Shown: piece after piece, positions 4,244 to 23,893 of the stretch
How positions within the stretch are numbered: position 1 is the first letter of the stretch
How the letters are laid out: the number at the start of each line of letters is the position of its first letter
IMG/VR virus record: IMGVR_UViG_3300030085_001621
Coordinates: 11,274 to 37,273 of that record
Source of the DNA: a virus
DNA: 26,000 bases
Reading direction: 5' to 3' (one strand)
Made by a program: the position numbers and the translations under genes
Notes under the pieces: generated by a model
Databases searched by the model: none
Seen by the model: only the letters and a program-made list of their open reading frames with translations
Told to the model about the DNA's origin: nothing

Positions 4244-4270
4244 AGATAATCACACTATTTGCTACAGGTC

Positions 4271-4278
4271 TATTTATA
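4271..4278 (-). promoter_or_regulatory. Late promoter box TATAAATA
   Basis: This is a perfect T4-type late box on the minus strand, immediately after the stop codon of the oxygenase gene (4279-4902) and 28 bp upstream of the ATG at 4243. It marks the return from cargo genes to structural genes and should drive the three fibre-like genes at 4243-1. Confidence 0.65.
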
Positions 4279-4902
4279 TCATTTCTCATTGCCTATCCAA
4301 GACAAAAAGAACGTGAGACAGAATCTACCGTCCATGGGATCATCGCTGTCCATGATAACAGTATCCACTTCATGCTTCATAAGTCCAGGGAATATAACCA
4401 TTGAGTTATTCTTACCCTCCACTTCTAAATTGTATTGAGTGAACTTAAAGTTTCCGCCCGTGAATTTTTTTGGTTCTTTGTATAACCAGAGGCAACATGT
4501 CCCTAAAGAAAGATCTCTATGGGGTTGATAGTTGTCACCATTTTTATAATGAGAAAGCAATACACTAACTTTATTGTATTGGAATTCCTCAAAGTATTTG
4601 TTCTCTTTCACCCAGTCAGCATTAGGAAATGCTTGCAATATAGGAGAAATGTATTTGTTGCATGCAGAATATCTTGCCGAGGTCCATACCTCGTGTAGAA
4701 ACAATCCAGAGTTTTGTTTGATGTATTGTCCATTCTTATATGCACCACCCGTATCCTCAGGAGTCAACAGGAGATCATTAGAACAGTAATACTCAATCTC
4801 TTTCCAAATTACTTCTAGTTGTTCGTCGGAAAAAACATTTTCAAGTAGCAGTAGGGGAAATGGTTCATTGAAACTATATCCCCTGAGAGCAGGATTAATC
4901 AT
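4279..4902 (-). CDS. 2-oxoglutarate/Fe(II)-dependent oxygenase
   Basis: This encodes 207 residues, ATG at 4902, overlapping the stop of the upstream 48-aa gene by 8 bp. The double-stranded beta-helix signature is visible: an iron-binding HxD (H128, D130), GGNF (149-152), the distal histidine in PGLMKHEV (H177), and R193 in GRFCLTFFL as the likely 2-oxoglutarate carboxylate contact. Length is normal for stand-alone phage enzymes of the prolyl-4-hydroxylase-like superfamily. The general reaction is hydroxylation coupled to decarboxylation of 2-oxoglutarate; the substrate here is unknown. It is the last gene of a cargo cassette and ends just before a late promoter box. It is one of several such enzymes in the window but is not a close copy of the others. 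Confidence 0.85.
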   Translation of the reverse strand: MINPALRGYSFNEPFPLLLLENVFSDEQLEVIWKEIEYYCSNDLLLTPEDTGGAYKNGQYIKQNSGLFLHEVWTSARYSACNKYISPILQAFPNADWVKENKYFEEFQYNKVSVLLSHYKNGDNYQPHRDLSLGTCCLWLYKEPKKFTGGNFKFTQYNLEVEGKNNSMVIFPGLMKHEVDTVIMDSDDPMDGRFCLTFFLSWIGNEK

Positions 4903-5041
4903 TTTCTAAGGGGAAGAGTTCATTATATCGGAGGAATCTCCTTAAAGAGGGTTCTATATCAAAAGATTCACACACGGCAAGATAAGATTCCCATTCGCTG
5001 ATCAGATGTTCAGGCACAGGATGTTCATTTTCCAACGCCAT
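4895..5041 (-). CDS. Small acidic protein of unknown function (48 aa)
   Basis: This short frame has an ATG at 5041 and a TAA at 4895. It starts MALENEHPVPEHL and ends RYNELFPLEND. It is acidic and probably helical, with no recognisable domain. Its start overlaps the end of the upstream 47-aa gene by 17 bp, and its stop overlaps the start of the oxygenase by 8 bp. This chained overlap, filling an otherwise empty gap, is the main support for it being real and translationally coupled. Confidence 0.6.
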   Translation of the reverse strand: MALENEHPVPEHLISEWESYLAVCESFDIEPSLRRFLRYNELFPLEND

Positions 5042-5168
5042 AATCAGATGCCTCAGATTCTAATTTGCGAATGTCTTCATGCAGTCTAGCAATTGCTTCC
5101 TGTGCTTCTTTTGAGAGTTCGTAACTCCACTCTTCACCCTTTTTATTCTTGAATGTCTTTTTGCTCAT
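5025..5168 (-). CDS. Small charged helical protein of unknown function (47 aa)
   Basis: ATG at 5168, TGA at 5025. The sequence starts MSKKTFKNKKGEEWSYEL, followed by a helical stretch rich in Glu, Ala and Arg (EAQEAIARLHEDIRKLESEA). A purine-rich AGGAGAAAG lies just upstream of the ATG and would serve as a ribosome binding site. It overlaps the upstream 223-aa gene by 26 bp and the downstream 48-aa gene by 17 bp. No known family is recognised. The ribosome site and gene chain make it likely to be translated. Confidence 0.6.
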   Translation of the reverse strand: MSKKTFKNKKGEEWSYELSKEAQEAIARLHEDIRKLESEASDYGVGK

Positions 5169-5814
5169 GGTCTTTCTCCTCTAAGGTTTTGTACTGCCAT
5201 TCATCAGTATGTCCGACTGTCCACCATTTGGATTCAGTCTCCACAGCATAATTCTGTGTGCATACTTTGAAGTCAGGTTTTTTGAGATCTCCTGGGATTA
5301 AGGAGTTGTCATGCCAGATTATTCTATTGTTTGGTTGAGCAGCAAATTGTCCATTATCAAGGGCGATGATGTTGAACGATTTGTGCTCGGGATCCAACTC
5401 AGAAAAATTAGTGTCGATAATAGAATGATCTGGATGAGCAGAGTCAATTGTAAATTCATATTCTCCTGGGTGCATTTTTTTGTCTTTGCCAAAGAACTCA
5501 CAACGTCCCAGAAGAGGTTTGCGAACTACAGTAATATTATAGTCGAAAGAATCCCAAAGTTCAAGGACATCCAGAGGAAGTTGATCTTCTGGATTAAAGT
5601 CCTTTTTCCAAACAAATGCACTTAAGGGTAGTTTGTCAAACAATGCACCATATTCAGTGAGAAGTGTCTCAAAATATAATGCTTTGGTCTGAACGCTTTT
5701 AACAGAAACCCAAATGCCAGGTGTTAACTCTCCATGACCTTTTTCTAGATCATAGAGATATTCTTTCTTGACGAATACTGGATTGGGCGGAATCGGATGT
5801 ACTAAGAATGCCAT
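5143..5814 (-). CDS. Conserved-looking cyanophage protein of unknown function (223 aa)
   Basis: ATG at 5814, joined to the upstream gene through a 1-bp TAATG overlap. The protein is soluble-looking with no signal peptide or membrane segment. It is rich in Trp, Phe, Pro and Asp and ends with a charged tail (EEKDHEQKDIQE). Scattered features include IPPNPVFVKKEY near residue 8, a run of aromatic residues, and KWWTVGHTDEWQY near 195-207. I see no catalytic motif and do not recognise a family with confidence. It sits in the cargo cassette between an oxygenase-associated small gene and two very short genes. Confidence 0.7.
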   Translation of the reverse strand: MAFLVHPIPPNPVFVKKEYLYDLEKGHGELTPGIWVSVKSVQTKALYFETLLTEYGALFDKLPLSAFVWKKDFNPEDQLPLDVLELWDSFDYNITVVRKPLLGRCEFFGKDKKMHPGEYEFTIDSAHPDHSIIDTNFSELDPEHKSFNIIALDNGQFAAQPNNRIIWHDNSLIPGDLKKPDFKVCTQNYAVETESKWWTVGHTDEWQYKTLEEKDHEQKDIQE

Positions 5815-6158
5815 TAATTACAAGATGCAAATAATACGTTTTCAACAATACCTTCAACAAAGGTTACCATGGCACTTGGAGTAGGTGCATAATGCACTGT
5901 CCAATGTGCAGGATAAAGTTCTAATTGTTTTGTTAAGAGATATGGCGTAACTCTACCATGATTTATACTCTTTACGACCCTGAACTTTCCACTTTCTTCA
6001 AAGGAATAAGTTCCGCTGTGATCCACTGACCATAAATGACCCTTCGGATCAATCCAGTTATATGACATGAATCCATCAAGATCTTTAGTCCTTAGTTCTC
6101 TGTTCCAAAAACCAGGACCAAGATCAAATGATGAGTGAATGGTGTCGTAAATACCCAT
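5814..6158 (-). CDS. Protein of unknown function (114 aa)
   Basis: ATG at 6158 with GGGAG about 5 bp upstream, a good ribosome site. The protein has many aromatic residues and short beta-like stretches: FDLGPGFWNRELRTKDLDGF near 11-30, then SYNWIDPKGHLWSVDHSGTY and a VTPYLLTKQLELYPAHW segment. It has no obvious catalytic residues or membrane segment. It starts 19 bp after the stop of the upstream oxygenase and overlaps the next gene by 1 bp (TAATG), so it belongs to the same operon. Function not recognised. Confidence 0.7.
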   Translation of the reverse strand: MGIYDTIHSSFDLGPGFWNRELRTKDLDGFMSYNWIDPKGHLWSVDHSGTYSFEESGKFRVVKSINHGRVTPYLLTKQLELYPAHWTVHYAPTPSAMVTFVEGIVENVLFASCN

Positions 6159-6177
6159 GTTTTCTCCCGTATTGCTA

Positions 6178-6741
6178 CTATTTAAACATCGGACCCATCA
6201 TCCATGCAACCAAAGATATACGTCTTCCTTTAGTTACTGGTTTGACTCTATGTGGAACCCAAGCAGGAAAAACAATACAGTCACCCTTATTGGGTTTGAT
6301 GCTTTTATTCAAGTTGGGTTGATAATCAATTTCAAATTCACCACCATCATACTCATCAGGACCACTCAATAACAAAGAACAAGAGAGTTTCCTTTCCATA
6401 TCTCCACAGATACTTGCGTCATCATTATCTACATGCCAACTGTAATGATCTTGTTTCTCACCATAGTAAATGGTAGATTGAATTTTAGATTGAAAATAAT
6501 TCAGATCATAGTTGAAATGTGTTTTGTTGGCACAAGTCATCATATTGTGAATGATACCAGGAATCCATTCATCCCAAGGTATCCAAGATACACTAGTAGA
6601 TCTGACATCTAGATCTTCTACTTCATTGGCAATAGAAGCAGTTTGGTAATGCAATGATTCAACATAAGTTACCATGTTGCTTATAAGCAAGTCTGGAAAC
6701 TTACTAGGAATATTGTATAGTAGGTTGGTTGTAAAAGACAC
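6178..6741 (-). CDS. 2-oxoglutarate/Fe(II)-dependent oxygenase (prolyl 4-hydroxylase/PiuC-like)
   Basis: From a GTG at 6741 this encodes 187 residues. The signature is clear: HVD (H103, D105), DGGEFEI (132-138), FPAWVPHRV with H164, and GRRISLVAW with R173 or R174 contacting 2-oxoglutarate. The frame stays open further upstream to an ATG at 6786, but that ATG lies inside tRNA-Asn and its 15 extra residues are translated tRNA. I therefore chose the GTG, whose first base is the tRNA discriminator position. The next in-frame ATG is residue 23 (NMVTYVESL) and would cut off what looks like the family N-terminus. An AGGAAGGGGA stretch in the tRNA 3' acceptor arm could act as ribosome binding site. 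Substrate unknown. Confidence 0.8.
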   Translation of the reverse strand: MSFTTNLLYNIPSKFPDLLISNMVTYVESLHYQTASIANEVEDLDVRSTSVSWIPWDEWIPGIIHNMMTCANKTHFNYDLNYFQSKIQSTIYYGEKQDHYSWHVDNDDASICGDMERKLSCSLLLSGPDEYDGGEFEIDYQPNLNKSIKPNKGDCIVFPAWVPHRVKPVTKGRRISLVAWMMGPMFK

Positions 6742-6812
6742 TCCCCTTCCTGGGATCGAACCAGGGACCAATTGATTAACAGTCAATCGCTCTACCGCTG
6801 AGCTAAAGAGGA
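6741..6812 (-). tRNA. trnN: tRNA-Asn (GTT)
   Basis: A 72-nt cloverleaf on the minus strand. The acceptor TCCTCTT pairs with AAGGGGA (one G-T pair), with TA at positions 8-9 and a GCTC/GAGC D stem. The anticodon stem ATTGA/TCAAT carries the loop CTGTTAA (anticodon GTT), and the T arm is CCTGG/CCAGG with TTCGATC. The discriminator is G. CCA is not encoded. It is the last of three tRNAs and abuts an oxygenase start. Confidence 0.93.
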
Positions 6813-6857
6813 TTGAAGGGGGCGCTCTTTCTATACAGAGTCTTTAATACTCCCCCA

Positions 6858-6930
6858 TGGAGAATAGCGGACTCGAACCGCTGACATCCTGCTTGCAAAG
6901 CAGGCGCTCTACCAACTGAGCTAATTCCCC
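6858..6930 (-). tRNA. trnA: tRNA-Ala (TGC)
   Basis: A 73-nt cloverleaf on the minus strand. The acceptor GGGGAAT pairs with ATTCTCC, with a GCTC/GAGC D stem. The anticodon stem CCTGC/GCAGG carries the loop TTTGCAA (anticodon TGC), and the T arm is AGCGG/CCGCT with TTCGAGT. Discriminator A; CCA not encoded. It lies 3 bp from tRNA-Thr and 45 bp from tRNA-Asn, so all three likely come from one transcript. Confidence 0.95.
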
Positions 6931-6933
6931 GAG

Positions 6934-7007
6934 AGCCACACATCGGACTTGAACCGATGACCTACGGTTTACAAAACCGTTGCTCTATCCATCTGAGCTA
7001 GAGTGGC
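6934..7007 (-). tRNA. trnT: tRNA-Thr (TGT)
   Basis: A 74-nt cloverleaf on the minus strand. The acceptor GCCACTC faces GTGTGGC with one T-T mismatch at the sixth pair. The D stem is GCTC/GAGC, the anticodon stem ACGGT/ACCGT carries loop TTTGTAA (anticodon TGT), and the T arm is ATCGG/CCGAT. Discriminator T; CCA not encoded. Its first 23 bases are also the end of the upstream small reading frame. A sigma70-like promoter sits just upstream. Confidence 0.92.
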
Positions 7008-7197
7008 GTTCTTCCTTTTTCTTCTTGAAGTACATACTATAGTACGTCTTCTTCATTTTGTCAATGGTCTCCATATCTTCTTTGAATCCCATGTATTTGA
7101 GATTTTGATATGTGCCTTCCATATCAGATATGAGTAGAAGAAGATTGGTGGGCGTTACTTTACGACCACCAAATTCATATTCATTCAGTGTAAACAT
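6985..7197 (-). CDS. Small lysine-rich protein of unknown function, 3' end inside tRNA-Thr
   Basis: From the ATG at 7197 this gives 70 residues, beginning MFTLNEYEFGGRKVTPTN. A helical region follows (LLLLISDMEGTYQNLKYMGF), then a Lys-rich end (MYFKKKKEER). The final residues HSSSDG and the TAG stop are read from the first 23 bases of tRNA-Thr. A GTG at 7239 would add 14 residues but would increase the overlap with the upstream oxygenase from 17 to 59 bp, so I prefer the ATG. No family is recognised. A consensus-like promoter for the downstream tRNAs lies inside this gene. Confidence 0.6.
   Translation of the reverse strand: MFTLNEYEFGGRKVTPTNLLLLISDMEGTYQNLKYMGFKEDMETIDKMKKTYYSMYFKKKKEERHSSSDG
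7036..7064 (-). promoter_or_regulatory. Sigma70-like promoter upstream of the tRNA-Thr/Ala/Asn cluster
   Basis: The minus strand has TTGACA at 7064-7059, exactly 17 bp, then TATAGT at 7041-7036. This is a perfect -35 and a 5/6 -10 at optimal spacing. Transcription would start near 7029, about 22 bp before the 5' end of tRNA-Thr. It lies within a coding gene, so constraint from the protein cannot be excluded, but its position immediately ahead of three tRNAs supports function. Confidence 0.5.
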
Positions 7198-7744
7198 CGA
7201 GTTTAAAATTGCAAGCGAATGTTTGTCTAACTGTATCACTCTTGTGTTGAGTTACTTGGTGCAGGCATGTTCCTGGGAAGAAGATTATATCTCCAGGTGC
7301 ATATCTGATACCCCATACATTATGGTAATCAATTAGTTTCTTTGCTTGAGATGATAGGGTTGCATTGTATCTATCCATAAAAGTAAAGTCTGAAAACCCT
7401 TCACCGTAGTTTGCAAAGAATACGCATGCTAGATCTTGTTCAATGTGATCATGCACTTCTTGATACGCCCCTCGTTTGTAGTAATTAATCCAAGGATCAT
7501 ACATCCAGAATTGAAATTGTTTGCCGAGTTGTTTTCCTAGGAGTTTAATACTAGGTTCGACGAGGGGTAACCAATCCTCCCATTTTAGAGGAATACGATC
7601 AATGACACATTCCTTTCCCCATGAAAACTGAGAGTTATCAATGTTTTCTTCTATGGCAGTAGCACTGATTTTGTCAATAAATTCTTGTGCGTTTGGTGCT
7701 CTGAATTGCCAATAGAATGTATTAGGAAAAATAAAATTGGTCAT
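7181..7744 (-). CDS. Putative 2-oxoglutarate/Fe(II) oxygenase (TIGR02466-like)
   Basis: This encodes 187 residues, ATG at 7744, directly abutting the stop of the upstream gene. The C-terminal half has the pattern NYYKRGAYQEVHDH (H98, H100), then a strand pair (ACVFFANY), GDIIFFPGTCLHQV with distal H162, and R173 in SDTVRQTFACNF. This matches the group of phage and marine bacterial oxygenases with an HxH rather than an HxD first motif. D99 lies between the two histidines, so which residue binds iron is uncertain. The N-terminal 80 residues look family-specific. It is probably a hydroxylase of unknown substrate. It is distinct from the HxD enzymes at 4279 and 6178. Confidence 0.7.
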   Translation of the reverse strand: MTNFIFPNTFYWQFRAPNAQEFIDKISATAIEENIDNSQFSWGKECVIDRIPLKWEDWLPLVEPSIKLLGKQLGKQFQFWMYDPWINYYKRGAYQEVHDHIEQDLACVFFANYGEGFSDFTFMDRYNATLSSQAKKLIDYHNVWGIRYAPGDIIFFPGTCLHQVTQHKSDTVRQTFACNFKLDVYTE

Positions 7745-7975
7745 TTATTTCCACCATTGTTTTGCAGGTAAGACACCACGACGATCAGTTTTGTATCCTT
7801 CGTCTCTCAAGGGCCAGGGTCCTTGATATTCTTCCTGTAATTCCAAAAGTTGCATAACTGCAATGTGTAGATACCAATAACGAAGATACCAATCAGCAAT
7901 CAATCCGTATTGAGGAAGACACCAATAATCATCTTCGTTTTGAATGAGCATTTCGACTAGTTTTTCTTTGTCCAT
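7745..7975 (-). CDS. Small Trp/Tyr-rich protein of unknown function (76 aa)
   Basis: ATG at 7975, only 4 bp after the 3' end of tRNA-Leu, so its mRNA leader must be tRNA sequence. The upstream bases show no purine-rich ribosome site. The protein starts MDKEKLVEMLIQNEDDYW, has an aromatic helix (LIADWYLRYWYLHIAVMQLLEL), and ends GVLPAKQWWK. The WYLRYWYLH stretch might be amphipathic or peripheral to membrane. It directly abuts the next oxygenase. No family recognised. Confidence 0.65.
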   Translation of the reverse strand: MDKEKLVEMLIQNEDDYWCLPQYGLIADWYLRYWYLHIAVMQLLELQEEYQGPWPLRDEGYKTDRRGVLPAKQWWK

Positions 7976-7979
7976 AATA

Positions 7980-8064
7980 TAGGAGTGGGGGGACTTGAAC
8001 CCCCACGAGATTAATTCTCAACAGATTTTAAGTCTGGTGCGTCTACCGATTCCGCCACACTCCC
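7980..8064 (-). tRNA. trnL: tRNA-Leu (TAA)
   Basis: An 85-nt class II tRNA on the minus strand. The acceptor GGGAGTG pairs with CACTCCT (first pair G-T). The anticodon loop is CTTAAAA (anticodon TAA), there is a long variable arm containing TTGAGAATTAATCTCGT, and the T arm is GGGGG/CCCCC with TTCAAGT. Discriminator A; CCA not encoded. Its first 54 bases are also read as the end of the upstream small protein. Confidence 0.95.
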
Positions 8065-8217
8065 GTTAATGTCCCAAGTCGGAGGATGAAAATGACAATA
8101 CTCATTAAAAGTAATTTTCATTTCCTTCGTAGTCAGATTAGCATGTTTTGCTGCTTTAGGCAAGTTCCACTTTGCTGACCACAACTGTTCCATTGCTTCG
8201 CGTGTTTCAGGTCTCAT
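8011..8217 (-). CDS. Small protein of unknown function whose C-terminus is read from tRNA-Leu
   Basis: The ATG at 8217 has AGGTG about 6 bp upstream. A GTG at 8226 in the same frame is less likely. The protein (68 aa) begins MRPETREAMEQLWSAKWNLP, followed by KAAKHANLTTKEMKITFNEY, which has a helix-turn-helix-like feel but is too short to call. After PPTWDIN the last 17 residues and the stop come entirely from tRNA-Leu. The start overlaps the upstream gene by 11 bp. The N-terminal 50 residues look like a real protein; the tail may be an accident of the missing stop codon. Confidence 0.6.
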   Translation of the reverse strand: MRPETREAMEQLWSAKWNLPKAAKHANLTTKEMKITFNEYCHFHPPTWDINGSVAESVDAPDLKSVEN

Positions 8218-8437
8218 CAGAAGCACCTACATTTTCTAAAAATTTCCTACGAAAATCTTCAACCTCATCTTGAATTTCTTCAGGAACAGGAGGAATTTCG
8301 TTAACAGGAACCATCATTACAGATTTACCATCTGGACGAGTAATCTTCCAGCATACATGTGATCTGTCAGTAAGATCGACGAGGAAGTCAAAATGATCTT
8401 CTGCCTCTCGCAGAGTAATTCCAATAGGTCCAATCAT
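8207..8437 (-). CDS. Small protein with weak Phd/YefM antitoxin-like pattern
   Basis: This encodes 76 residues, ATG at 8437, joined to the upstream gene by a 4-bp ATGA overlap. Residues about 8-48 (TLREAEDHFDFLVDLTD, then VCWKITRPDGKSVMMVPVNE) follow the layout of Phd/YefM antitoxins: a short helix, then two strands with an R-x-G-K turn and a hydrophobic V-P end. The C-terminal 25 residues are acidic (PPVPEEIQDEVEDF). No toxin-like gene is beside it, so if the fold is right it may act alone, for example as a DNA-binding or anti-toxin decoy protein. This identification is tentative; it could be an unrelated small cyanophage protein. Confidence 0.65.
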   Translation of the reverse strand: MIGPIGITLREAEDHFDFLVDLTDRSHVCWKITRPDGKSVMMVPVNEIPPVPEEIQDEVEDFRRKFLENVGASDET

Positions 8438-8631
8438 GCTTGTGAAAAACAGTAGGTTACAATTTCGGGATCAACGATTTCTTGAATCTGAGAAACAGTT
8501 TCAGAGAATCCCTCTGATCCTTCTTCATCCCACTTCCAAGTTACAGTCTTGTCATTGCCCTCATTATCTAGAAGTTTTATAGAACGCTTGGAAAAATTAA
8601 TCCAAACCTGTTCTAACATCGTTTCGGGCAT
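8434..8631 (-). CDS. Small protein of unknown function, first gene of cargo cassette A
   Basis: This encodes 65 residues, ATG at 8631, and is the first gene downstream of a consensus sigma70-type promoter. The sequence runs MPETMLEQVWINFSKRSIKL, then a turn (DNEGNDKTVTWKWDEEG) and a Gln/Glu-rich helix (SETVSQIQEIVDPE). It is acidic, with no known motif. A second in-frame ATG lies four codons downstream. It overlaps the next gene by 4 bp (ATGA), so translation is likely coupled. Being the first gene after an early-type promoter suggests expression soon after infection. Confidence 0.65.
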   Translation of the reverse strand: MPETMLEQVWINFSKRSIKLLDNEGNDKTVTWKWDEEGSEGFSETVSQIQEIVDPEIVTYCFSQA

Positions 8632-8656
8632 AGGATCGTTTTTTGATTACCCATAT

Positions 8657-8685
8657 AGTATAGCAGGATGCCATACCCCTGTCAA
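8657..8685 (-). promoter_or_regulatory. Sigma70-type promoter of cargo cassette A
   Basis: The minus strand has TTGACA (8685-8680), exactly 17 bp, then TATACT (8662-8657). This is a perfect -35 and a 5/6 -10. It begins 1 bp after the gp5 stop codon and would start transcription near 8650, about 20 bp before the ATG at 8631. The bases CTTGACAGGG around the -35 are identical to those in the cassette B promoter. Confidence 0.75.
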
Positions 8686-8686
8686 G

Positions 8687-11236
8687 TCAGTTCAAGAAGA
8701 TAGATGCAGCAGTAATTTTGCATGTGAGTTCTGCAGAGAGCAGTAGTGCTCCACCCGCCTTGATCGTTGCAGCAGCAGATGAAGTCATGAAGATCAGACC
8801 AGCAGCAACATTGACGTTGTATGCACCCGTAGTGACGTTACAGTTGTATCCTGTAGCACCAAATGTTCCAGAGTAAGGACCAGCAGGATTAGCAATCGTA
8901 TAACGAGGAATTGTATCAGCACCAATACTAGCAGGTTTCATAACAGTTTCTACAGAACCACCAACAAATCTACGAATACCTGACACACCAAGAGAGAGTT
9001 TTGATGGCGGGAAGTTAATCATCTCAATTAGGTGAGGTGTAACAATTTCAATAGAGTTATCACCACTAATAATGGTTTCACCTGCAGACATTGATATAGA
9101 ACCACCACTTGATTCAAAGACATTACTAGTAAACTTAGTAGAAACAGATCCTACGCTAAGTTCAGAACCTTGAATTTCTAACTTTGAACCAGCAGTAGTA
9201 ACATCGAGATCAGAACCAAATCTAATAGTGTGTTTTTGAATTTTTGAACCTGATACCTTTTCACCTTTATTATCAACTAACTTGGGTGCGCCTTCTGCAC
9301 CTAAGAAGAATCCACCACCAACTTCAATGTGACAATCACCAGTAACTTTTAGGAAGTAATCACCTTCAATACTTCGTGCATAATCACCATCAATGGTTGC
9401 ACAGTTATCACCATGTGTTTCTTCTGTATAGTTACCTGCATATGATGTATGGTCGGCAATCAGATTACCATCATCACCCTTACCTTTAGATCCTTTGTTT
9501 TGTGATTTAGTATATGATGCAACCTTCTCTTCAATCTCTTCTGGAGTTGCATCAGGATAATCTTCAGCAATCTTTTTCCTAGCAACATATTCTGCAAATT
9601 GATTCTGATTAAGATTGTAGGAATGTCGCGTTGTACCACTACTTTCTTTCTTTACACTTGCAGTTCTACCAGGTGTTCCAATCAATAACTCATACGAACC
9701 ATCAATGAATGTTTTGGCAGCAGTTAAATATGGATCAGTTTCTCTGAAAACGCTATCTAAGATACTACCTGGTCCATCACCACCACAATCACCCCTATTC
9801 TTTCCTCGGATACTATTAATCTTTTCAAGTTCTTCGGGAGTACAGTGTGTGATACCAAATAAAGGATACCAACCCACAGTATCTTTACCACCATCAGGTG
9901 TTCTATTACAACCACCAGTAGCGAACTTGATAAACATTGCAATCAATCCAGTGATACTGGTAATACCTTTCTTAAGAAGATCAGTTCCGTCTTCAAAGAT
10001 ACCACTACCTGCTTTCCATGCGTCAATAATTTCTTGTGCACCTTCAACTGCTTCAACAGCTTTTGATACCTGATCAACAACATTAAGAAGACTGTCAAGC
10101 ATACCTTGTACTTGACATACAATGCTATCGATAGCAGATTGAACACCCTGCAGGACGAAAGTTGCCTTATCAATTAAACTATCTAAAACACCATCAAGAA
10201 GACTCAAGATTGTTTCTGTAGGTGCGGTGACATATTGGAACAACTTGGAGTCTTCCATGCAGAGTGCCTTAAGAAGAGTTGCTACTGCTCCCTGAATGAT
10301 AGTAAAAATGAATAGTGGCGCACCAGTTGCTTGAGCAAGTAGTCCCAATAGATCCAATTCTTCAGCGAGAGCACTGATTTGTGCCCTAACAGCAGAAATA
10401 ACCTGAGTAAATACTGCACTCAAAAAGTTTTGTAGTTTTGCAGTTAATGCTTTTGCAGTGTGAAGTTTACCTGAAACAATGTCTAAGTAGTCACCATCTT
10501 CTGCTTTGATCAGATTTCCAGCAGTATCAGCAAGATCTTCCAGTAGATACGATAACTTATACTCTAGTGTCTTCCAAGGTCCGCCAACACCATTAGCAGC
10601 AGGAATAGGTTTTTCTGGTTGTCTAGGTTTGCCAGGATTGCCTGAACTACCAGCAACTTTTTGAGATACATTAACAGGTGATGCTTTACCACCAACGTCT
10701 GCTTTAGGATTGTTTGGTAATGCAACCGTATTATTATCTGATGGTCTTCTGAATCCCGCTTCCTTTGTAGTTGCCATAGTGGCATTAGGATTCATTGGGT
10801 GTGTAGTTGCAGGATTAGGTGCAACACCAGGTTCAATTGCCTTACCAGTAAAAGCAAAGGTCTTTTCATCTCTTGTCTCAGAAGATTTCTGAACACGCAA
10901 AACACCGATAACAATTGGCATCTGAGCATTCTCACCATCCATGAAGAATCCCATGACAATAGCACCTGCTTGCAATTGTCCAGAACTTTCACCTTGATTA
11001 TCATTACCTGGTTGACATGTGTGTTGTAACACAGTCGCCCAAGGAAGATCATCCGTAGGCAGATTAGAGGTAGTTTCTCCTCTTACATTAGTGTAATACC
11101 CCAGAACTCGGACTTTAACTCGTCCTAATTGCATAGGGTCTTTATTACTTTCTACCTCACCAACCCACCAGAAAAATCCATCTTTACCGACGAAATTTAC
11201 GGTTGGTTCATTAATAATGCCGTCAATGGTGCTCAT
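8687..11236 (-). CDS. gp5: Baseplate hub spike protein, gp5-like, without visible lysozyme domain
   Basis: This encodes 849 residues, ATG at 11236. The N-terminal 1-115 form a gp5-type OB fold, with WWVGEVESNKDPMQLGRVKV (24-43) and AGAIVMGFFMDGENAQMPIV (90-109). A linker follows to about 220, then a long helical, hydrophobic region (about 225-440) in place of the T4 lysozyme. From about 600, short repeats such as DGDYARSIEGDYFLKVTGD look like the triple beta-helix spike shared with VgrG. In T4, gp5 trimers sit on gp27 and pierce the outer membrane. Here the gene follows cargo cassette B and has its own GATAAATA late box. Confidence 0.85.
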   Translation of the reverse strand: MSTIDGIINEPTVNFVGKDGFFWWVGEVESNKDPMQLGRVKVRVLGYYTNVRGETTSNLPTDDLPWATVLQHTCQPGNDNQGESSGQLQAGAIVMGFFMDGENAQMPIVIGVLRVQKSSETRDEKTFAFTGKAIEPGVAPNPATTHPMNPNATMATTKEAGFRRPSDNNTVALPNNPKADVGGKASPVNVSQKVAGSSGNPGKPRQPEKPIPAANGVGGPWKTLEYKLSYLLEDLADTAGNLIKAEDGDYLDIVSGKLHTAKALTAKLQNFLSAVFTQVISAVRAQISALAEELDLLGLLAQATGAPLFIFTIIQGAVATLLKALCMEDSKLFQYVTAPTETILSLLDGVLDSLIDKATFVLQGVQSAIDSIVCQVQGMLDSLLNVVDQVSKAVEAVEGAQEIIDAWKAGSGIFEDGTDLLKKGITSITGLIAMFIKFATGGCNRTPDGGKDTVGWYPLFGITHCTPEELEKINSIRGKNRGDCGGDGPGSILDSVFRETDPYLTAAKTFIDGSYELLIGTPGRTASVKKESSGTTRHSYNLNQNQFAEYVARKKIAEDYPDATPEEIEEKVASYTKSQNKGSKGKGDDGNLIADHTSYAGNYTEETHGDNCATIDGDYARSIEGDYFLKVTGDCHIEVGGGFFLGAEGAPKLVDNKGEKVSGSKIQKHTIRFGSDLDVTTAGSKLEIQGSELSVGSVSTKFTSNVFESSGGSISMSAGETIISGDNSIEIVTPHLIEMINFPPSKLSLGVSGIRRFVGGSVETVMKPASIGADTIPRYTIANPAGPYSGTFGATGYNCNVTTGAYNVNVAAGLIFMTSSAAATIKAGGALLLSAELTCKITAASIFLN

Positions 11237-11254
11237 TTAATTCTGAGTTTTTCT

Positions 11255-11863
11255 TTATTTATCGTATTTTGGGGTGTGATCATACACTCGATCCGCAATC
11301 TTTTTGACTAATTGATCTGCATAATCACCAAACAATTCGTGCTTTTTAGCGAACAGTAGTTGGGTATCAAACATGTTGAAAGAAACAATAGTTCTGGTCT
11401 CATCAGATTCATTAGGTCGTGCTTCATGCAAAAATGATGATGGGAAAAATATAATATCACCTTCCTTTACATTAGGTGCATATGACATCAAAGCACCAGT
11501 AAAAGGATTGTTATATGGACTATAGAGCACTGTAGATCTATGAACTTCAGGATTAAATTCAACATACATCACTGCAGAAAATCCTGCTCCCCCATGGTTA
11601 TGAACAGGATGACAATGTGATCTTTTAGATCTCTCATACCACATTGCCATGATAACTAGAGGAAAGTCTAGATATCCACTAAAGTCCATCAATTCATCTT
11701 TGATAGATTCAGTGACTACTCTCTCATATGGTGGCAGTTCATAGTCACCATAATCAGTAAACTTGTCATCTAACTGACTAAGAATCTTAGATTTTTTTTC
11801 TTCCCAATTATCAATACTGTAATGAGAATAAGGAATCTCAAAGATTTTTCTATTGTTTAGCAT
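11255..11863 (-). CDS. 2-oxoglutarate/Fe(II) oxygenase-like protein (tandem copy 2)
   Basis: From the ATG at 11863 this encodes 202 residues. A longer open frame reaches 11962, but its 33 extra residues only shadow the upstream gene, so they were dropped. Key positions are H88 and H90 in VHNHGGAGFSA, EGDIIFFPSSFLHEA with H146, and R157 in ETRTIVSFNMF. It is clearly paralogous to the next upstream gene: both share W-Y-E-R-S-K, H-N-H-G, Y-V-E, F-P-S, L-H-E-A and R-T-I-V-S-F-N. The HxH first motif resembles TIGR02466-type phage oxygenases. The 14-bp overlap with its copy suggests tandem duplication and coupled translation. Substrate unknown. Confidence 0.75.
   Translation of the reverse strand: MLNNRKIFEIPYSHYSIDNWEEKKSKILSQLDDKFTDYGDYELPPYERVVTESIKDELMDFSGYLDFPLVIMAMWYERSKRSHCHPVHNHGGAGFSAVMYVEFNPEVHRSTVLYSPYNNPFTGALMSYAPNVKEGDIIFFPSSFLHEARPNESDETRTIVSFNMFDTQLLFAKKHELFGDYADQLVKKIADRVYDHTPKYDK
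11256..11263 (-). promoter_or_regulatory. Late promoter box GATAAATA for gp5
   Basis: The minus strand reads GATAAATA, 19 bp upstream of the gp5 ATG and overlapping the stop codon of the last cassette B gene. It matches the T4-like late box and restarts structural transcription after the cargo genes. Confidence 0.6.
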
Positions 11864-12413
11864 TACTAAATCCAGATTTCCATGCTCTAGCAACATCTTC
11901 ACCCATGATGTTGAATGACACGATAGTTCTATCAACATCACTATTGTTGATAGGTGCTTCATGCAAAATATATGAAGGGAATACTAATAGATCACCTTCT
12001 CTAACAATAGGTTGAAACTTCATGTTCTCACCTGTTGCAGCATCTAAGAATGGTGCATGAAATTTAGTTGGTTCATGTATTGCACCATCATACTCAACAT
12101 ATAGTATAGCAGAGAATCCTGTTGCTCCATGGTTATGTGGCCCGTGATAATCTCCTTTCTTGGATCTTTCATACCACATAGAAGTAATCATTACTCCTGG
12201 TGGGTAGATATTTTTGAAGTCTAACATCGCTTCATCAATTGCCTGTCCAACTACATCAATGTAATGTGGAATACCCTTCTTCTTATTCTCATAAAAATCA
12301 GTGTAAGAATTGATTGGCAGAGTGTCAAGAATTTTCTTTTTATTTTCTTCCCAGTTTGGAATTGAATACTGTCTAAAAGGAACTTTAAACAGATAGTCTC
12401 TTGCGTTACTCAT
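11850..12413 (-). CDS. 2-oxoglutarate/Fe(II) oxygenase-like protein (tandem copy 1)
   Basis: This encodes 187 residues, ATG at 12413, fused to the upstream cupin gene by a TAATG overlap. Features are an N-terminal YSIPNWEENKKKILDTL, matched by YSIDNWEEKKSKILSQL in its paralogue, then GPHNHGATGFSAILYVEY (H93, H95), REGDLLVFPSYILHEA (H151), and R162 in DRTIVSFNIM. The triad and arginine fit a 2-oxoglutarate/Fe(II) enzyme with an HxH motif. No membrane segment or signal peptide is seen. With the cupin upstream and its copy downstream, three beta-barrel proteins are encoded in a row, which suggests one small pathway on an unknown substrate. Confidence 0.75.
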   Translation of the reverse strand: MSNARDYLFKVPFRQYSIPNWEENKKKILDTLPINSYTDFYENKKKGIPHYIDVVGQAIDEAMLDFKNIYPPGVMITSMWYERSKKGDYHGPHNHGATGFSAILYVEYDGAIHEPTKFHAPFLDAATGENMKFQPIVREGDLLVFPSYILHEAPINNSDVDRTIVSFNIMGEDVARAWKSGFSNAKQ

Positions 12414-18701: not shown

Positions 18702-21683
18702 TTAGAAAGTCCCTAAAGTGGATTCGACCGCTTGTACAATCTGTTGTCCGCCACCTGTATTTATCGGAACTGCAGTCATGATTGGAACCAGTTTTTCGAG
18801 AACCATAGGTATCGGTACAAACTCCAATGCTTGTTCCATTGCAAACTTAGCAGATATACCTTTTTCACCCAATGCTTTAGTAGAAGCTTTATCAACTGCT
18901 CCGAGAATTTTTGGATCTATTCCAAGTTCGCCACCAATTTGTTTGATTGCTGCAGATGGATCACCCCCTATAGCACCAGTGACTGCACTCATAACACCAC
19001 CAAGACCAAAATGATCTGCTACATTTGTCATGATGTTCATTGGATTAAACCCACCAGAGAGCACACTACCTGCCAGTTGTCCAAGTGCAGGATTAACCAT
19101 TCCCAATCCTGTTGAGATAGCACCACCCAAATTACCACCTAATATCGACGAACCAATATTACCCAATGGTCCTCCGATCATACCTAATCCTATATTTGCA
19201 GCACCCAGGAAGTTACCCTGAAGTAAACTTGTTCCCATTTGTCCTAATGGACTGTTGATAAACCCACCAACTTTATCCATGACTCCACCAAGACCACTCA
19301 TCATGCCACCCATTCCAGGAATCATGCTCACACCCTGCATGATCGCTCCCATGGGGTTGCCAGAAGCTAATCCAGAGATCGCTCCAATACCCGCCATGAT
19401 AGGTGCTGCACCAGGTATAAATGATGCTGCTGTCTGAACAAGAGGATTGGAAACTACCTTACTAACAGTTTTACCAATACCACTGACTGCCTTACCGATA
19501 CCTTTAACTATACCACCAAGGAAGAACTCTTGGTTTGGATCAGCTGATACAAATGGTACTACACCACCAAGTGCCTTACCAGCATTTACATCATTTTCAT
19601 CCCCAGATGCTTCAGCATCTCTTGCAGGTGTCTTACCGTCATTTGGTTGAGTTTTCAACCATGCTTGTTTCGCCTCTTCATAATCTTTATCACCAACGTC
19701 ACCCTCTTCAAAGTCTTCTCTCTTGGGTCCTTCTTTCTTTGCTTGACCAAAGATTGCACCGAGAGCACTTAACTTCGGTAATTTCGATCCAACACTCTTT
19801 ATAAAATTCTGTACGCCACCCAGACCTAAATTAGCAATGAGTTTATCTTCTTCTGTTCTCGGATCAAATTCTGGGAAGAATACACCTGCTAAGTCTCTAC
19901 CTAGCATTGCAATATCAAGGAACGTTGAAATACCGCTACCAGGAACAAAAGCAAGACCAACAGGAGGAGGTGCTACAGATAATTCAAAAAGACCTGATAC
20001 CGCATCAATAAGAGCACCAGTTGGATCTTGGTTTGTTAAACGATCATAACTAGAAACTAAACTGAATATACTACCAATAATTGGCCAAGCATAAGGACCA
20101 ATCTCCTTAAGAGCACCCTTAATATCAGTTAGACCCTTAATATTCTTTTTGGCTAACGCTTTGGTAATAGTCTCTACGAAGGGCAGAGCCATGAAAGACT
20201 TCTGTATTTTGCCACCAATACCCTTTACGGTATTCATGACAGGTTCTACAGCACTCATGATAGGTCTTAAGATCCTATTCATGATGGCATTCTTCGCCTT
20301 CTCAGGAAGACCGCTTGCCCAGTCGTCAAACCTCTTATATTGAGTATTAACAGCGTTAAGGAATCTCTGTCCCTGTCTTCCTAAAAAGTCGCCAGTTATT
20401 GTTGCAGCTCTTCTAGTGTTAGAACCCTCGGCAAAAGTAACTTCCTGTCCGAGAATAGTCGCACCTTTTCTAAAAGCGGATCCTTCTTGGAAGGTAAGAT
20501 TCCTTTGAAGTGTTTGTAAACCACCAAAGAGACTATTTTTTAATTTACTTCCTTTGTTCCTTAATTTTGTTAACTTCTCTTCTGCTCCTGCTTTGATCGC
20601 TGCGCGTCTTTCTTTATCAAGACCAATACCATCAAGAGTGCTATCAACAGTTTCTGAAAAGATCTCAGTTACTGGTTTCCCCTTAATCTGAGTTTTTGAT
20701 AACCGACTACTGATTTCATCACCAATTGCTTGTCCAGCATTAACGGTGTTAGTTCTAAGATTATCGAGTGCAGTAGGTTTAATTCCTAGTGCATCATCAT
20801 AATATCTGTCTAAGCGAGATCTACGATCAGCAAAAGGATTAAATTTTGAAGTTTTAAACCTTTCACCTATGTTAGCTGCACGATCCCTTGCACTATCAAG
20901 AGCACCTAATAAACCTGTTCGTTTTTGTCTGGGTGTCGCACCCTTCGGTTTTCCGTCTGGTGTGCCACCTTTAGGTTTTGGGTCTGGTATGTCTGGTTTA
21001 TCTCTCTCAAACAGATCTAAAAGACCTAATATGTCTGTAATTAGAGCAAATGGATTCATCAGGTATCTCAACCCAATGATACCCTTCATCATATCACCTA
21101 GACCTCTCAGTCTAGTACCAAAGTCTCCATCTTCGGCAAACATTGCCGACCAACCATCGATGATATTGGTGGTAAATCCTGATACCCAACCAAATATCTT
21201 ATCAAAGACAAATAATGCCTTGTCTAGAAATGTTTGTAACTTTTCAGCATTTTCTGGATCTCCAATCCACTTCATTATCTCTGAAGTGATGGCGAATGCA
21301 CCAATGTTTGCTAAAAAACTTCCAATCGGTGCTAATAGTTGCGATATGAAACCAAATGCACCTGCAAATCCTTTTTTAGCGGTCTTTTTTAAAGCAGATG
21401 TAATTCCTTTCTTACCTTCTGCTTTAGTTGCGCGTGCTTCTATCTTATCTTCTGCCGCCTGATCTGCCGCTCTACGTTTATTTCGTCTATCCGCTCGTTC
21501 CTGGTCTTTTTCTACTTTTACAAACCCAAGTTCGATCTTGTATAGATCATTTACTATGCTTGATACACCCTTCAGGGTGATGTTTAAATTATTTGTCGCT
21601 AAAACATTTTTCTTGACAGCAGAAGCAACGGGTGACTTTTTTGACCCAGCACCAATAAATTTATCTGTTTGGATTTTAGCCAC
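18702..21683 (-). CDS. Tape-measure-like tail protein (993 aa)
   Basis: This encodes 993 residues from a GTG at 21683 (MAKIQTDKF); no ATG is available near the start. A basic coiled-coil-like segment (about 58-90, Arg/Lys/Glu-rich) precedes a hydrophobic helical module (about 110-225, with KWIGDPENAEKL) that also occurs in the next gene downstream. From about 720 to 930 it is extremely rich in Gly, Met, Ala and Ile (GMGGMMSGLGGVMDKVGG and similar), with membrane-like stretches. This is typical of tail tape measures, which sit inside the tube and are ejected. It follows gp26/gp51 as gp29 follows hub genes in T4, though it is much longer than T4 gp29. Direct homology to gp29 was not checked. 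Confidence 0.65.
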   Translation of the reverse strand: MAKIQTDKFIGAGSKKSPVASAVKKNVLATNNLNITLKGVSSIVNDLYKIELGFVKVEKDQERADRRNKRRAADQAAEDKIEARATKAEGKKGITSALKKTAKKGFAGAFGFISQLLAPIGSFLANIGAFAITSEIMKWIGDPENAEKLQTFLDKALFVFDKIFGWVSGFTTNIIDGWSAMFAEDGDFGTRLRGLGDMMKGIIGLRYLMNPFALITDILGLLDLFERDKPDIPDPKPKGGTPDGKPKGATPRQKRTGLLGALDSARDRAANIGERFKTSKFNPFADRRSRLDRYYDDALGIKPTALDNLRTNTVNAGQAIGDEISSRLSKTQIKGKPVTEIFSETVDSTLDGIGLDKERRAAIKAGAEEKLTKLRNKGSKLKNSLFGGLQTLQRNLTFQEGSAFRKGATILGQEVTFAEGSNTRRAATITGDFLGRQGQRFLNAVNTQYKRFDDWASGLPEKAKNAIMNRILRPIMSAVEPVMNTVKGIGGKIQKSFMALPFVETITKALAKKNIKGLTDIKGALKEIGPYAWPIIGSIFSLVSSYDRLTNQDPTGALIDAVSGLFELSVAPPPVGLAFVPGSGISTFLDIAMLGRDLAGVFFPEFDPRTEEDKLIANLGLGGVQNFIKSVGSKLPKLSALGAIFGQAKKEGPKREDFEEGDVGDKDYEEAKQAWLKTQPNDGKTPARDAEASGDENDVNAGKALGGVVPFVSADPNQEFFLGGIVKGIGKAVSGIGKTVSKVVSNPLVQTAASFIPGAAPIMAGIGAISGLASGNPMGAIMQGVSMIPGMGGMMSGLGGVMDKVGGFINSPLGQMGTSLLQGNFLGAANIGLGMIGGPLGNIGSSILGGNLGGAISTGLGMVNPALGQLAGSVLSGGFNPMNIMTNVADHFGLGGVMSAVTGAIGGDPSAAIKQIGGELGIDPKILGAVDKASTKALGEKGISAKFAMEQALEFVPIPMVLEKLVPIMTAVPINTGGGQQIVQAVESTLGTF

Positions 21684-21813
21684 TCGCTGCTTTTCTCTCC
21701 TTCATTCGGTTTTCTTCTTCTTTTAGGAAATTAATCAATAGATTGACATAGATCTCCTTTTCCCATGGCATAAGATGGTCAATATATTCAATATTCCATT
21801 TATGATGGTGCAT
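21676..21813 (-). CDS. gp51: gp51-like baseplate hub assembly protein (stand-alone start)
   Basis: From the only ATG (21813) this gives 45 residues: MHHHKWNIEYIDHLMPWEKE, then IYVNLLINFLKEEENRMKER. The M-P-W-E-K/R-x-I-Y core is typical of the short protein after gp26 in cyanophages. But the frame remains open and protein-like upstream (LRSYYEGNFAL directly before the ATG), back to a point inside the gp26 end, and no start codon lies in that part. The full domain of 64 residues from 21870 is therefore probably made by a -1 frameshift from gp26. Its stop overlaps the GTG of the tape-measure-like gene by 8 bp. Confidence 0.65.
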   Translation of the reverse strand: MHHHKWNIEYIDHLMPWEKEIYVNLLINFLKEEENRMKERKAASG

Positions 21814-21825
21814 TAAGGCAAAATT

Positions 21826-21876
21826 GCCCTCGTAGTATGACCGAAGATTAGTGTGCAGGAGGGCTATGCGAAAAAA
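21826..21876 (-). promoter_or_regulatory. Candidate -1 ribosomal frameshift signal (gp26/gp51)
   Basis: The minus strand has the heptamer T TTT TTC (21876-21870) in the gp26 frame, two codons before its TAG stop. After a 5-nt spacer comes the stem GCCCTC (21864-21859), a 27-nt loop, and GAGGGC (21831-21826). A -1 slip on TTC enters the gp51 frame exactly at CGC ATA GCC and continues without a stop for 64 residues. Confidence 0.6.
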
Positions 21877-22577
21877 CTCGCTAATCCCTCAAGGGTAACA
21901 TCACTCTCAACACCAGTGTTGGGATTGGTTACACTAATCGTATGTGACAACTTCGGCATAGTTTCAAAGAAGTCTTGGAACATACCAAACTGTTTACTGT
22001 TTAGGTTATCCAGGAATTCTAATTTTTCTGCTGTTGTCGAATCGGCACAATCATATACTTGTTCAGTATCGGCAATAGTTACCATACATTCTGCTGCCAT
22101 TGCAAAAACATCATCAACACCAGGACCCTCATCACCAAAATTCATTTTGACAAATGTCGCCATTTTGGGGTAGTCAAGAGTTACAATAATCTCATCAGAC
22201 AATTTCAACTCTTTTTTATGTTTCTTGTCTCTCACGACTTTAATTTCATCGAGAGGGATTTGAATTTGGACCTGTGTCTCACCATCATCAGGGCAGGTAA
22301 CTTGGACATCAACACTCTCACCAACTGATTTTGTGCGAATCTGTAAGAACAGATATTCAACATCAAAAGTTGATAATTTATCAACATCTTTAAGATCTGT
22401 ACAATCTTTAATGATTTTTGTGATCGTGTCCAAAAGTTGTTCTTGATCACCCGTCTCAGTTGCAACCAAAAGTAATTTTTCTTCTTTCACCAGGAAAGGT
22501 CTAAAATTGACAATGGTTTTACCGTCAGACGGTAGTTTCAATTTGTACCTAGGTACATTTAATTTAGGTAATGCCAT
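21864..22577 (-). CDS. gp26: Baseplate hub subunit, gp26-like (T4 baseplate family)
   Basis: This encodes 237 residues, ATG at 22577. The N-terminus MALPKLNVPRYKLKLPSDGK and the following FRPFLVKEEKLLLVATETGD (27-46) match the T4_baseplate family (PF12322). So do the SVDVQVTCPDDGETQVQIQI strands and the acidic C-terminal half with SKQFGMFQDFFETMP (193-207). T4 gp26 is 208 residues. These proteins act with gp51 in assembling the central hub. The last codons contain a slippery T TTT TTC, and the gp51 frame continues in -1. A CTAAATA box lies about 22 bp upstream of its ATG. It follows gp54. Confidence 0.88.
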   Translation of the reverse strand: MALPKLNVPRYKLKLPSDGKTIVNFRPFLVKEEKLLLVATETGDQEQLLDTITKIIKDCTDLKDVDKLSTFDVEYLFLQIRTKSVGESVDVQVTCPDDGETQVQIQIPLDEIKVVRDKKHKKELKLSDEIIVTLDYPKMATFVKMNFGDEGPGVDDVFAMAAECMVTIADTEQVYDCADSTTAEKLEFLDNLNSKQFGMFQDFFETMPKLSHTISVTNPNTGVESDVTLEGLASFFA

Positions 22578-22610: not shown

Positions 22611-23471
22611 TTAACCAATGTTGTTTAACGAAGGGACGAATCCAGAGAATAATGTTGAAGCAGTATCGTTCAAAAGTCCTGAACCTGTCGTTGGGAAGAC
22701 AAATTCATCATTTCTGGAAGTAGATTCATCAGTGTTGCTATCTGTAGTAGAGGGAACTGTCGAACTACGTTTGCGACCAGCGTCATCAAACTTATTTGCC
22801 GTATAATAGCGATATCTCTCATAATAAAATCCAATCTGTTGAGATGTAATCTTTGACGCGGTGTTATCAAGTCTAATCGATCCAATATTATATGGGAATA
22901 CATTCTCTAATTTGTAACATGCCGTCAGTTTATATTTTCTAGCAAACAAGTTGTTTCCTCCTTCCCTCAATGCTCGTAGCATCTTAGGATCACTGATTGC
23001 CAAACCTCCATCACCTCTCTCCCACTTATAAATCTTCAACTCTGGGCAGACATAATCACCATAATACTGGGTATATTGCTCTGAGTCTGATGCCATCAGT
23101 TGTGTCCATCTTTCAAAGAAAGTCCTCGTATATCCCGATCTCGGCATCTTAAAGGTGATATTGATCTGACTGAATGCTGTATTTGTAGCATACTTAAACG
23201 GAGATCCCACTACTTGTGCTTGACCTGTAGTAATTTGTTTACTTGGTAATTGCACAGAATCTGCATAATAATCTAAAAGTAGATCTAAGTCACCTTGAAC
23301 GGTGAGTTTATCACTACTGACTTCACCAAATGTTTGGGTAAGACATCTAGGAGTGCCAAATCTGACTGAAAATAGGTTTGGGGTGCTTACATGGTTATCA
23401 TCTCTTCTAGAGAATGCCATGAACTCTTGAAAAGAGTTATATCTCGCACCTTCTGGTTGATAGATTGCCAT
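22611..23471 (-). CDS. gp54: Baseplate tail tube initiator, gp54-like
   Basis: From the ATG at 23471 this gives 286 residues. The ATG overlaps the gp4 stop (TAATG); a longer frame to 23528 needs a TTG and 58 bp of overlap. Tail-tube-like patterns include STPNLFSVRFGTPRCLTQTF near 29-48, PSKQITTGQAQVVGSPFKYA near 76-95, NITFKMPRSGYTRTFFERW near 104-122, and LTACYKLENVFPYNIGSIRL near 181-200. These follow the gp19/gp54 tube fold, where a beta-sandwich ends in a P-x-x-I. T4 gp54 is 320 residues and starts tail tube growth on the hub with gp48, which lies just across the divergent promoter here. The C-terminal 50 residues are Ser/Thr-rich. Confidence 0.78.
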   Translation of the reverse strand: MAIYQPEGARYNSFQEFMAFSRRDDNHVSTPNLFSVRFGTPRCLTQTFGEVSSDKLTVQGDLDLLLDYYADSVQLPSKQITTGQAQVVGSPFKYATNTAFSQINITFKMPRSGYTRTFFERWTQLMASDSEQYTQYYGDYVCPELKIYKWERGDGGLAISDPKMLRALREGGNNLFARKYKLTACYKLENVFPYNIGSIRLDNTASKITSQQIGFYYERYRYYTANKFDDAGRKRSSTVPSTTDSNTDESTSRNDEFVFPTTGSGLLNDTASTLFSGFVPSLNNIG

Positions 23472-23893
23472 TAGACTTTGAGTTCCTTTTCGGTAATGAT
23501 TTTGAATTCCCATTGCCTGTCCAAACAAAACTCAGTGGCAGCTTTCCACTTTGCTTGATTGACACTCCAGGTCACAACCTCATTAATGTATCTTTTGGTC
23601 ATTCGTTTTTGTGTTTTGGGTTCCCTTGTTTGCTTAAAGGGTTTAACCTCCACTAAATACTTCTTGTTATCGATTTTCATGTAGAAATCGACGAAGTACC
23701 GATGGTATTTATTATCAACAGGTGATTTATATGGTATTACGCATTCCTCGCTACTCCATTCCTGTATGCTCGGTGTTGTATCACACCAAAGCATGAACTT
23801 ATACTCCCATGACGAACGGTAAGTTATGTTATGGGGATTGCCTTTGTATTTACGAGGAAATTTGGGTTGGTAAGTACCTTGGTAATATCGCAT
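23471..23893 (-). CDS. gp4: Head completion protein, gp4-like nuclease fold
   Basis: This encodes 140 residues, ATG at 23893, near the length of T4 gp4 (150). The start MRYYQGTYQPKFPRKYKGNP and SSWEYKFMLWCD (27-38) are characteristic of gp4/gp50 proteins. A TnsA-like PD-(D/E)xK core is visible: FVDFYMKIDNKKYLVEVK with D69, E82 and K84, preceded by E30. In T4 this protein is added to filled heads before tail joining and has been linked to trimming DNA ends. It leads the leftward structural block and overlaps gp54 by 1 bp. A CTAAATA box lies about 23 bp upstream. Confidence 0.88.
   Translation of the reverse strand: MRYYQGTYQPKFPRKYKGNPHNITYRSSWEYKFMLWCDTTPSIQEWSSEECVIPYKSPVDNKYHRYFVDFYMKIDNKKYLVEVKPFKQTREPKTQKRMTKRYINEVVTWSVNQAKWKAATEFCLDRQWEFKIITEKELKV

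Follow-up and report, generated by a model that had tools for sequence, protein, structure and literature searches.

How is gp51 translated in T4-like cyanophages, where it looks like a truncated gene without a start? Cyanophage and marine vibriophage gp51 was described in 2010 as shorter than its T4 counterpart, about 200 N-terminal residues being absent (Sullivan 2010, PMC3037559). An earlier note on the DNA considered here, a window of 26,000 nucleotides (positions 11,274 to 37,273 of the IMG/VR virus record IMGVR_UViG_3300030085_001621), proposed that gp51 is reached by a programmed -1 frameshift near the end of gp26. Based on the data below, we consider it very probable that gp26 and gp51 are two parts of a single tail assembly chaperone (TAC) gene with a programmed -1 ribosomal frameshift. 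The missing N-terminal residues are then explained, since gp51 would be the frameshifted extension of gp26. The locus comprises the following features.

22611–23528, minus strand: tail tube protein gene, immediately 5' of gp26 (phrog_45, 3.2e-58).
21864–22577, minus strand: gp26 open reading frame, 237 amino acids, predicted short form TAC-N (Pfam T4_baseplate, 8.4e-72; phrog_150, 6.1e-83).
21885–21890, minus strand: SD-like GAGGGA, putative upstream stimulator, 8 nt 5' of the slip site.
21870–21876, minus strand: slippery heptamer T TTT TTC, recognised by conservation and synonymous constraint.
21864–21866, minus strand: gp26 stop codon TAG, one codon past the heptamer.
21826–21864, minus strand: hairpin GCCCTC/GAGGGC with arms at 21864–21859 and 21831–21826, putative stimulator, clade-specific.
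21676–21888, minus strand: gp51 as the -1 frame, a stop-to-stop open reading frame of 70 codons, predicted C-terminal extension of TAC-NC (phrog_634, 1.4e-30).
21676–22577, minus strand: predicted gp26-gp51 frameshift product, 300 amino acids (virtual fusion compared with T4 gp51 by hhalign).
18702–21683, minus strand: 993-amino-acid open reading frame in the tape-measure position, PHROG label 'endolysin' (phrog_790, 1.1e-197).

Read on the minus strand, gp26 ends CTT GAG GGA TTA GCG AGT TTT TTC GCA TAG, and the heptamer, its coordinates and the entry of a -1 slip into the gp51 frame are as originally reported. No stop interrupts the -1 frame between 21888 and 21679, its own lying at 21678–21676, and the claim that it continues for 64 codons beyond the slip is borne out. 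The upstream part of gp51 was also said to contain no start codon, which holds for ATG, GTG and TTG: none occurs in the first 19 codons, and the first of them is the ATG at 21813, inside the conserved domain. The rarer codons ATA and CTG are present 5' of this ATG, which had been taken for the only one of gp51; it is the first, with a second in-frame ATG further along. The locus has the layout of a G/GT pair, with two open reading frames in the 0 and -1 frames and a slippery site shortly before the first one stops.

The comparison across phages that had been suggested as a check shows that the heptamer and the open -1 frame are conserved in cyanophages and well beyond. All 79 IMG/VR cyanophage-type loci with a readable stop (gp26 identity 49–99%) end in xxT TTT TTC NNN stop, and in all of them the -1 frame remains open through gp51 to the end of the locus; the loss of either feature in close relatives, named beforehand as evidence that would count against frameshifting, is not seen in any of the 79. 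T TTT TTN is also found in the phages Caulobacter Cr30, Cronobacter LPCS28, Vibrio ValKK3, Stenotrophomonas YB07, Rhizobium RHph_I34, Methylophilales Melnitz-3, Ochrobactrum OC, Aeromonas AS-yj and Pseudoalteromonas XG4, among others, and in S-CREM2 the heptamer is present with the gp26 stop directly after it. Few loci were added by scans for more distant relatives that started from Cr30 and ValKK3. When loci at ≥90% nucleotide identity are removed, 63 of the 65 remaining gp26 loci keep T TTT TTN, and 58 have exactly TTTTTTC; a stricter set (<70% nucleotide identity) retains the heptamer in 29 of 31. Of 70 further Phe-Phe pairs within gp26, not one lies in a T TTT TT context, and conservation of this order rules out chance.

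Selection acts on the heptamer itself. Across 27 disjoint pairs of loci, synonymous constraint is confined to its three codons (z 3.9, 3.6 and 3.2), with z ≤ 1.7 at every other position of the last 25 gp26 codons, and the heptamer codons are unchanged in 73 of 75 comparisons against 48.5 expected. The final base is C in 58 of 63 loci, though TTC accounts for only 253 of 700 Phe codons (36%) in the remainder of gp26; these codon-usage and pair statistics take loci as independent beyond the stated identity filters. A conserved X_XXY_YYZ heptamer under synonymous constraint is what a programmed -1 frameshift calls for, and U_UU.U_UU.C counts among the motifs that give efficient -1 shifts in E. 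coli, where IS elements too make use of it (PMC4066793). The same observations bear on the objection that the arrangement is a sequencing error, a pseudogene or a chance overlap. The window does derive from a 37,273-base metagenomic virus contig, and the overlap itself is all that would speak for an artefact; the same arrangement recurs in >100 loci, many of them in isolate genomes, with selection in both frames, and this explanation, to which we give a negligible probability, is already refuted by conservation.

The gp51 part provides a second line of evidence. Of 63 non-redundant loci, 33 have no ATG from the slip site up to the internal Met, and 23 of these 33, the window included, also lack GTG and TTG, whereas the remaining 30 of 63 carry an ATG in that stretch. 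The earlier note had listed a start codon upstream of the YYE.NFAL region as an argument against its own proposal; an ATG in that position is missing from the 33 and present in the 30. In the ATG-less loci, purifying selection on the stretch is confined to the -1 frame, where pN/pS is 0.25; the remaining two frames have 1.77 and 0.98 (13 disjoint pairs of loci without ATG). Hence it is translated, despite having no ordinary start in the 23, and the downstream frame codes without an ATG of its own in the 33. In the 30 loci with an ATG, gp51 could be made separately as well.

Those 30 loci also speak for a different explanation, namely that gp51 is a separate small gene with its own start, possibly non-canonical or coupled to termination, next to which the heptamer is incidental. 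GenBank annotation treats gp51 in this way, and several of the ATGs just past the slip site overlap the gp26 stop (TGATG, TAATG). The two exceptions lacking the heptamer, the Vibrio ackermannvirus-like phages L118 and L119, have TCA CTT TTT in its place at the end of gp26 and a TAATG overlap start for gp51; there, recoding may have been lost or reduced to a tetramer. A separate gene nevertheless fails to account for the 33 loci without ATG, or the 23 without ATG, GTG or TTG, ahead of a large, selected part of the conserved domain, and it leaves the exact synonymous constraint on the heptamer unexplained. The SD-like motif lies >20 nt from any such ATG, and in one clade the ATG sits within a hairpin arm. 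Database annotation begins gp51 at the internal Met in Syn33 and S-RIM8, cutting conserved residues, and overlooks it in S-MbCM100 and S-CAM4. We thus regard a separate gp51 gene as very unlikely and retain the frameshift.

Upstream of the slip site lies an element absent from the earlier note, the SD-like GAGGGA at 21890–21885. Most loci carry an SD-like GAGG 8–12 nt 5' of the heptamer, the element taking the forms GAGG, GGAGG or AAGGA. At positions -20 to -6, an SD match of ≥4 nt is found in 94% of loci compared with 16% of control windows. The Glu codon within the element is GAG rather than GAA in a ratio of 32:13, as opposed to 438:1110 elsewhere (28% GAG) and 8:22 in other Glu-Gly pairs (p = 3e-4). 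The loci behind both sets of counts are not phylogenetically independent, and pairwise comparison of this codon revealed no synonymous constraint.

Downstream, compared with codon-preserving randomisations, the 50 nt 3' of the heptamer fold more stably (mean z -2.1 ± 0.24; p < 0.05 in 48% of loci), with hairpins that occupy the same interval and differ between clades. In one clade an 11-bp stem starts 5 nt after the heptamer; its pairing exceeds that of slid controls, and the alignment shows changes on both sides at four pairs. The window's own stem, GCCCTC/GAGGGC (6 bp, 27-nt loop, 5 nt past the heptamer), is real, as had been noticed, and marginal when the window alone is set against randomisations that preserve its codons (p 0.087). 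Its only other occurrences in the loci examined are in the near relatives L002, L005 and S-RIM8, and we rejected this exact stem as a conserved element; it is better viewed as a local variant, as the recurring downstream hairpins are clade-specific. Putative stimulators of the kind expected at a frameshift site are in place on both sides, an SD-like motif upstream and structure downstream, the latter clade-specific and marginal in the window.

Slippage of RNA polymerase on the T run, a transcriptional realignment in which the ribosome takes no part, would likewise join the two frames. A six-T run precedes the stop in nearly all loci, and three non-redundant loci have seven T. Six T is, however, a short run for polymerase slippage, and selection favours TTTTTTC over a longer run, the heptamer ending in C in far more loci than Phe codon usage would give. 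Its phase is likewise fixed, as X_XXY_YYZ, and a ribosomal event agrees with the SD-like motif and the hairpins. We rate polymerase slippage a shade below even a separate gp51 gene, and a slip of the ribosome remains our preferred explanation.

In the mechanism that we propose, most ribosomes would stop at the gp26 TAG and release the 237-amino-acid short form. In a minority, with TTT in the P site and TTC in the A site, the two Phe-tRNAs would move back onto TTT TTT a single codon ahead of the stop, and the ribosome would continue in the gp51 frame to yield the 300-amino-acid long form. We infer that such slips take place in infected cells, with an efficiency that leaves them the lesser course, and that the SD-like element 8 nt upstream and the downstream hairpin probably promote them. 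Both forms, made in a fixed ratio, would act on, and presumably bind, the tape-measure protein encoded directly downstream, like gpG/gpGT of lambda.

The neighbourhood of the locus supports this assignment. The gene order of tail tube, gp26, gp51 and large open reading frame is that of tail tube, TAC and tape measure, and the pair lies between the tail tube and tape-measure positions as G/GT does, the tape measure of the window being assigned by position and a weak match (phrog_2276, 0.0079). In Cr30 the large gene two genes 3' of the locus, past a small open reading frame, is annotated as tail tape measure. Taken together, these data make the 993-amino-acid product the likely tape measure of these cyanophages, and a pair placed just ahead of it a T4-like version of the lambda G/GT frameshift. 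The window gene itself opens with GTG and overlaps the end of gp51 by 8 nt. In S-CREM2 (L122, OR473000; positions 2984–12055), two giant 'endolysin' genes of 1565 and 1456 amino acids directly follow the TAC pair; the tail of this phage measures 418 nm (PMC10665884), and the two genes are a candidate tape measure, perhaps split. BLASTP found no similarity between the first of these giant proteins and the 993-amino-acid product.

Position, homology to T4 gp51 and the literature point to gp26 and gp51 as the short and long chaperones TAC-N and TAC-NC, a pair of forms found in most phages with long tails. The highest-probability PDB match of the gp26 AlphaFold model (pLDDT 86) is the HK97 tail assembly chaperone 2ob9, which is not significant (probability 0.60, E 0.68–0.96), nor is the match to yqbN 3klu (probability 0.21); a search of the gp26 profile against sequences of solved structures gave nothing significant. 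The parallel with G/GT drawn in the earlier note agrees with locus position, T4 gp51 homology and published work, whereas its 'hub assembly' role is wording derived from T4, the evidence favouring tail assembly chaperones.

As in lambda, a short and a frameshifted long protein would be made by a slip near the end of the short reading frame. The lambda heptamer is G GGA AAG, whereas that of the window is T TTT TTC; the two systems are likened by gene arrangement, with a weak structural match to a known TAC. Programmed -1 frameshifting of the chaperones gpG/gpGT is classical (PMC5009743), and for gp26/gp51 of T4-like cyanophages the idea has more precedent than the earlier note supposed: according to papers that cite it, the 2022 Virology study of Vladimirov, Gautam and Davidson identified the T4-like TACs (PMC10885494, PMC12846349). 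The title of that study emphasises a non-frameshift mechanism, and PRFect cites it for some T4-like phages that do without frameshifting and carry a short gene together with a long, fused one (PMC10885494). The Adele paper cites it for poly-T slip signals in T4-like TAC-N genes (PMC12846349). The TAC locus of Vandenendeviridae/Andersonviridae, among them phage Adele (PMC12846349), resembles ours in that TAC-N ends with a conserved poly-T slip motif and the -1 frame stays open through an unannotated downstream reading frame; it differs in phage family and motif (GTTTTT), and the apparent likeness is one of arrangement. Bacterial -1 cassettes (dnaX and the IS3/IS1 family; PMC4066793) share the heptamer, an SD-like element 6–17 nt upstream and a downstream hairpin, but concern other genes, and in the gp26/gp51 loci the hairpin varies by clade and the slip lengthens the product, as in IS elements and unlike dnaX. 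The frameshifted type of TAC is thus already known, and the present locus is a further well-supported case, to which we add the measured constraint, the test for start-less coding, the SD-like element, hairpin turnover, and the finding that readable gp26 ends have no slip site where gene 51 is separate.

This last finding concerns T4 itself. Pfam T4_baseplate matches residues 1–201 of T4 gp51 (3.9e-52), and T4 gp51 matches phrog_150 over residues 3–248 and phrog_634 over 147–246, giving a gp26-like N-domain followed by a ~50-amino-acid C-terminal extension. BLASTP of T4 gp51 against the window gp51 alone gave no signal, and profiles were required: with them, the alignment of the virtual gp26-gp51 fusion and the T4 gp51 family spans the junction, covering residues 12–282 (hhalign 98.6%, E 1.2e-15). 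From the family matches and this end-to-end alignment, T4 gp51 is the one-gene form of the long product, as T4 gp26 is homologous to the short one. The window gp51 frame also matches the C-terminal end of phrog_150 (positions 227–276, E 0.002), which is expected if some members of phrog_150 are long forms. In T4, by contrast, the two are separate and divergent genes and the gp26 end reads TTC TTT, without a slippery site. Among T4 and its relatives with a separate gene 51, none of the gp26 ends that could be read is slippery, Phe-Phe being coded TTC TTT or absent.

We lean towards a history in which recoding is ancestral. In the T4 lineage, a duplication would have given the separate genes 26 and 51, after which the slippery codons disappeared; elsewhere the heptamer and SD-like element would have stayed fixed while one hairpin gave way to another. 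The direction of these changes is the part that we infer. Under this history gp51 of T4-like cyanophages and many relatives would be no gene of its own but the tail of a frameshifted chaperone, which accounts for its start-less, truncated appearance. The annotation of gp26/gp51 would be corrected in hundreds of marine phage genomes (502 records of the phage collection match this gp51 region), and a mechanism is suggested for T4 gp51, an essential factor for hub assembly whose function is listed as unknown (PMC3004832). The two lineages also offer a natural comparison, short and long chaperones being made by recoding in one and from two genes in the other.

Two further observations concern the T4-like gene set. 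In L132, near 1840–1870, a T4-like gene 51 has a frame break near codon 120 with no T TTT TTN, probably a sequencing error or a broken gene. In L081 (7803–8090, minus strand), the T4 annotation gives an internal product 26' inside gene 26; it may be one more form of this chaperone.
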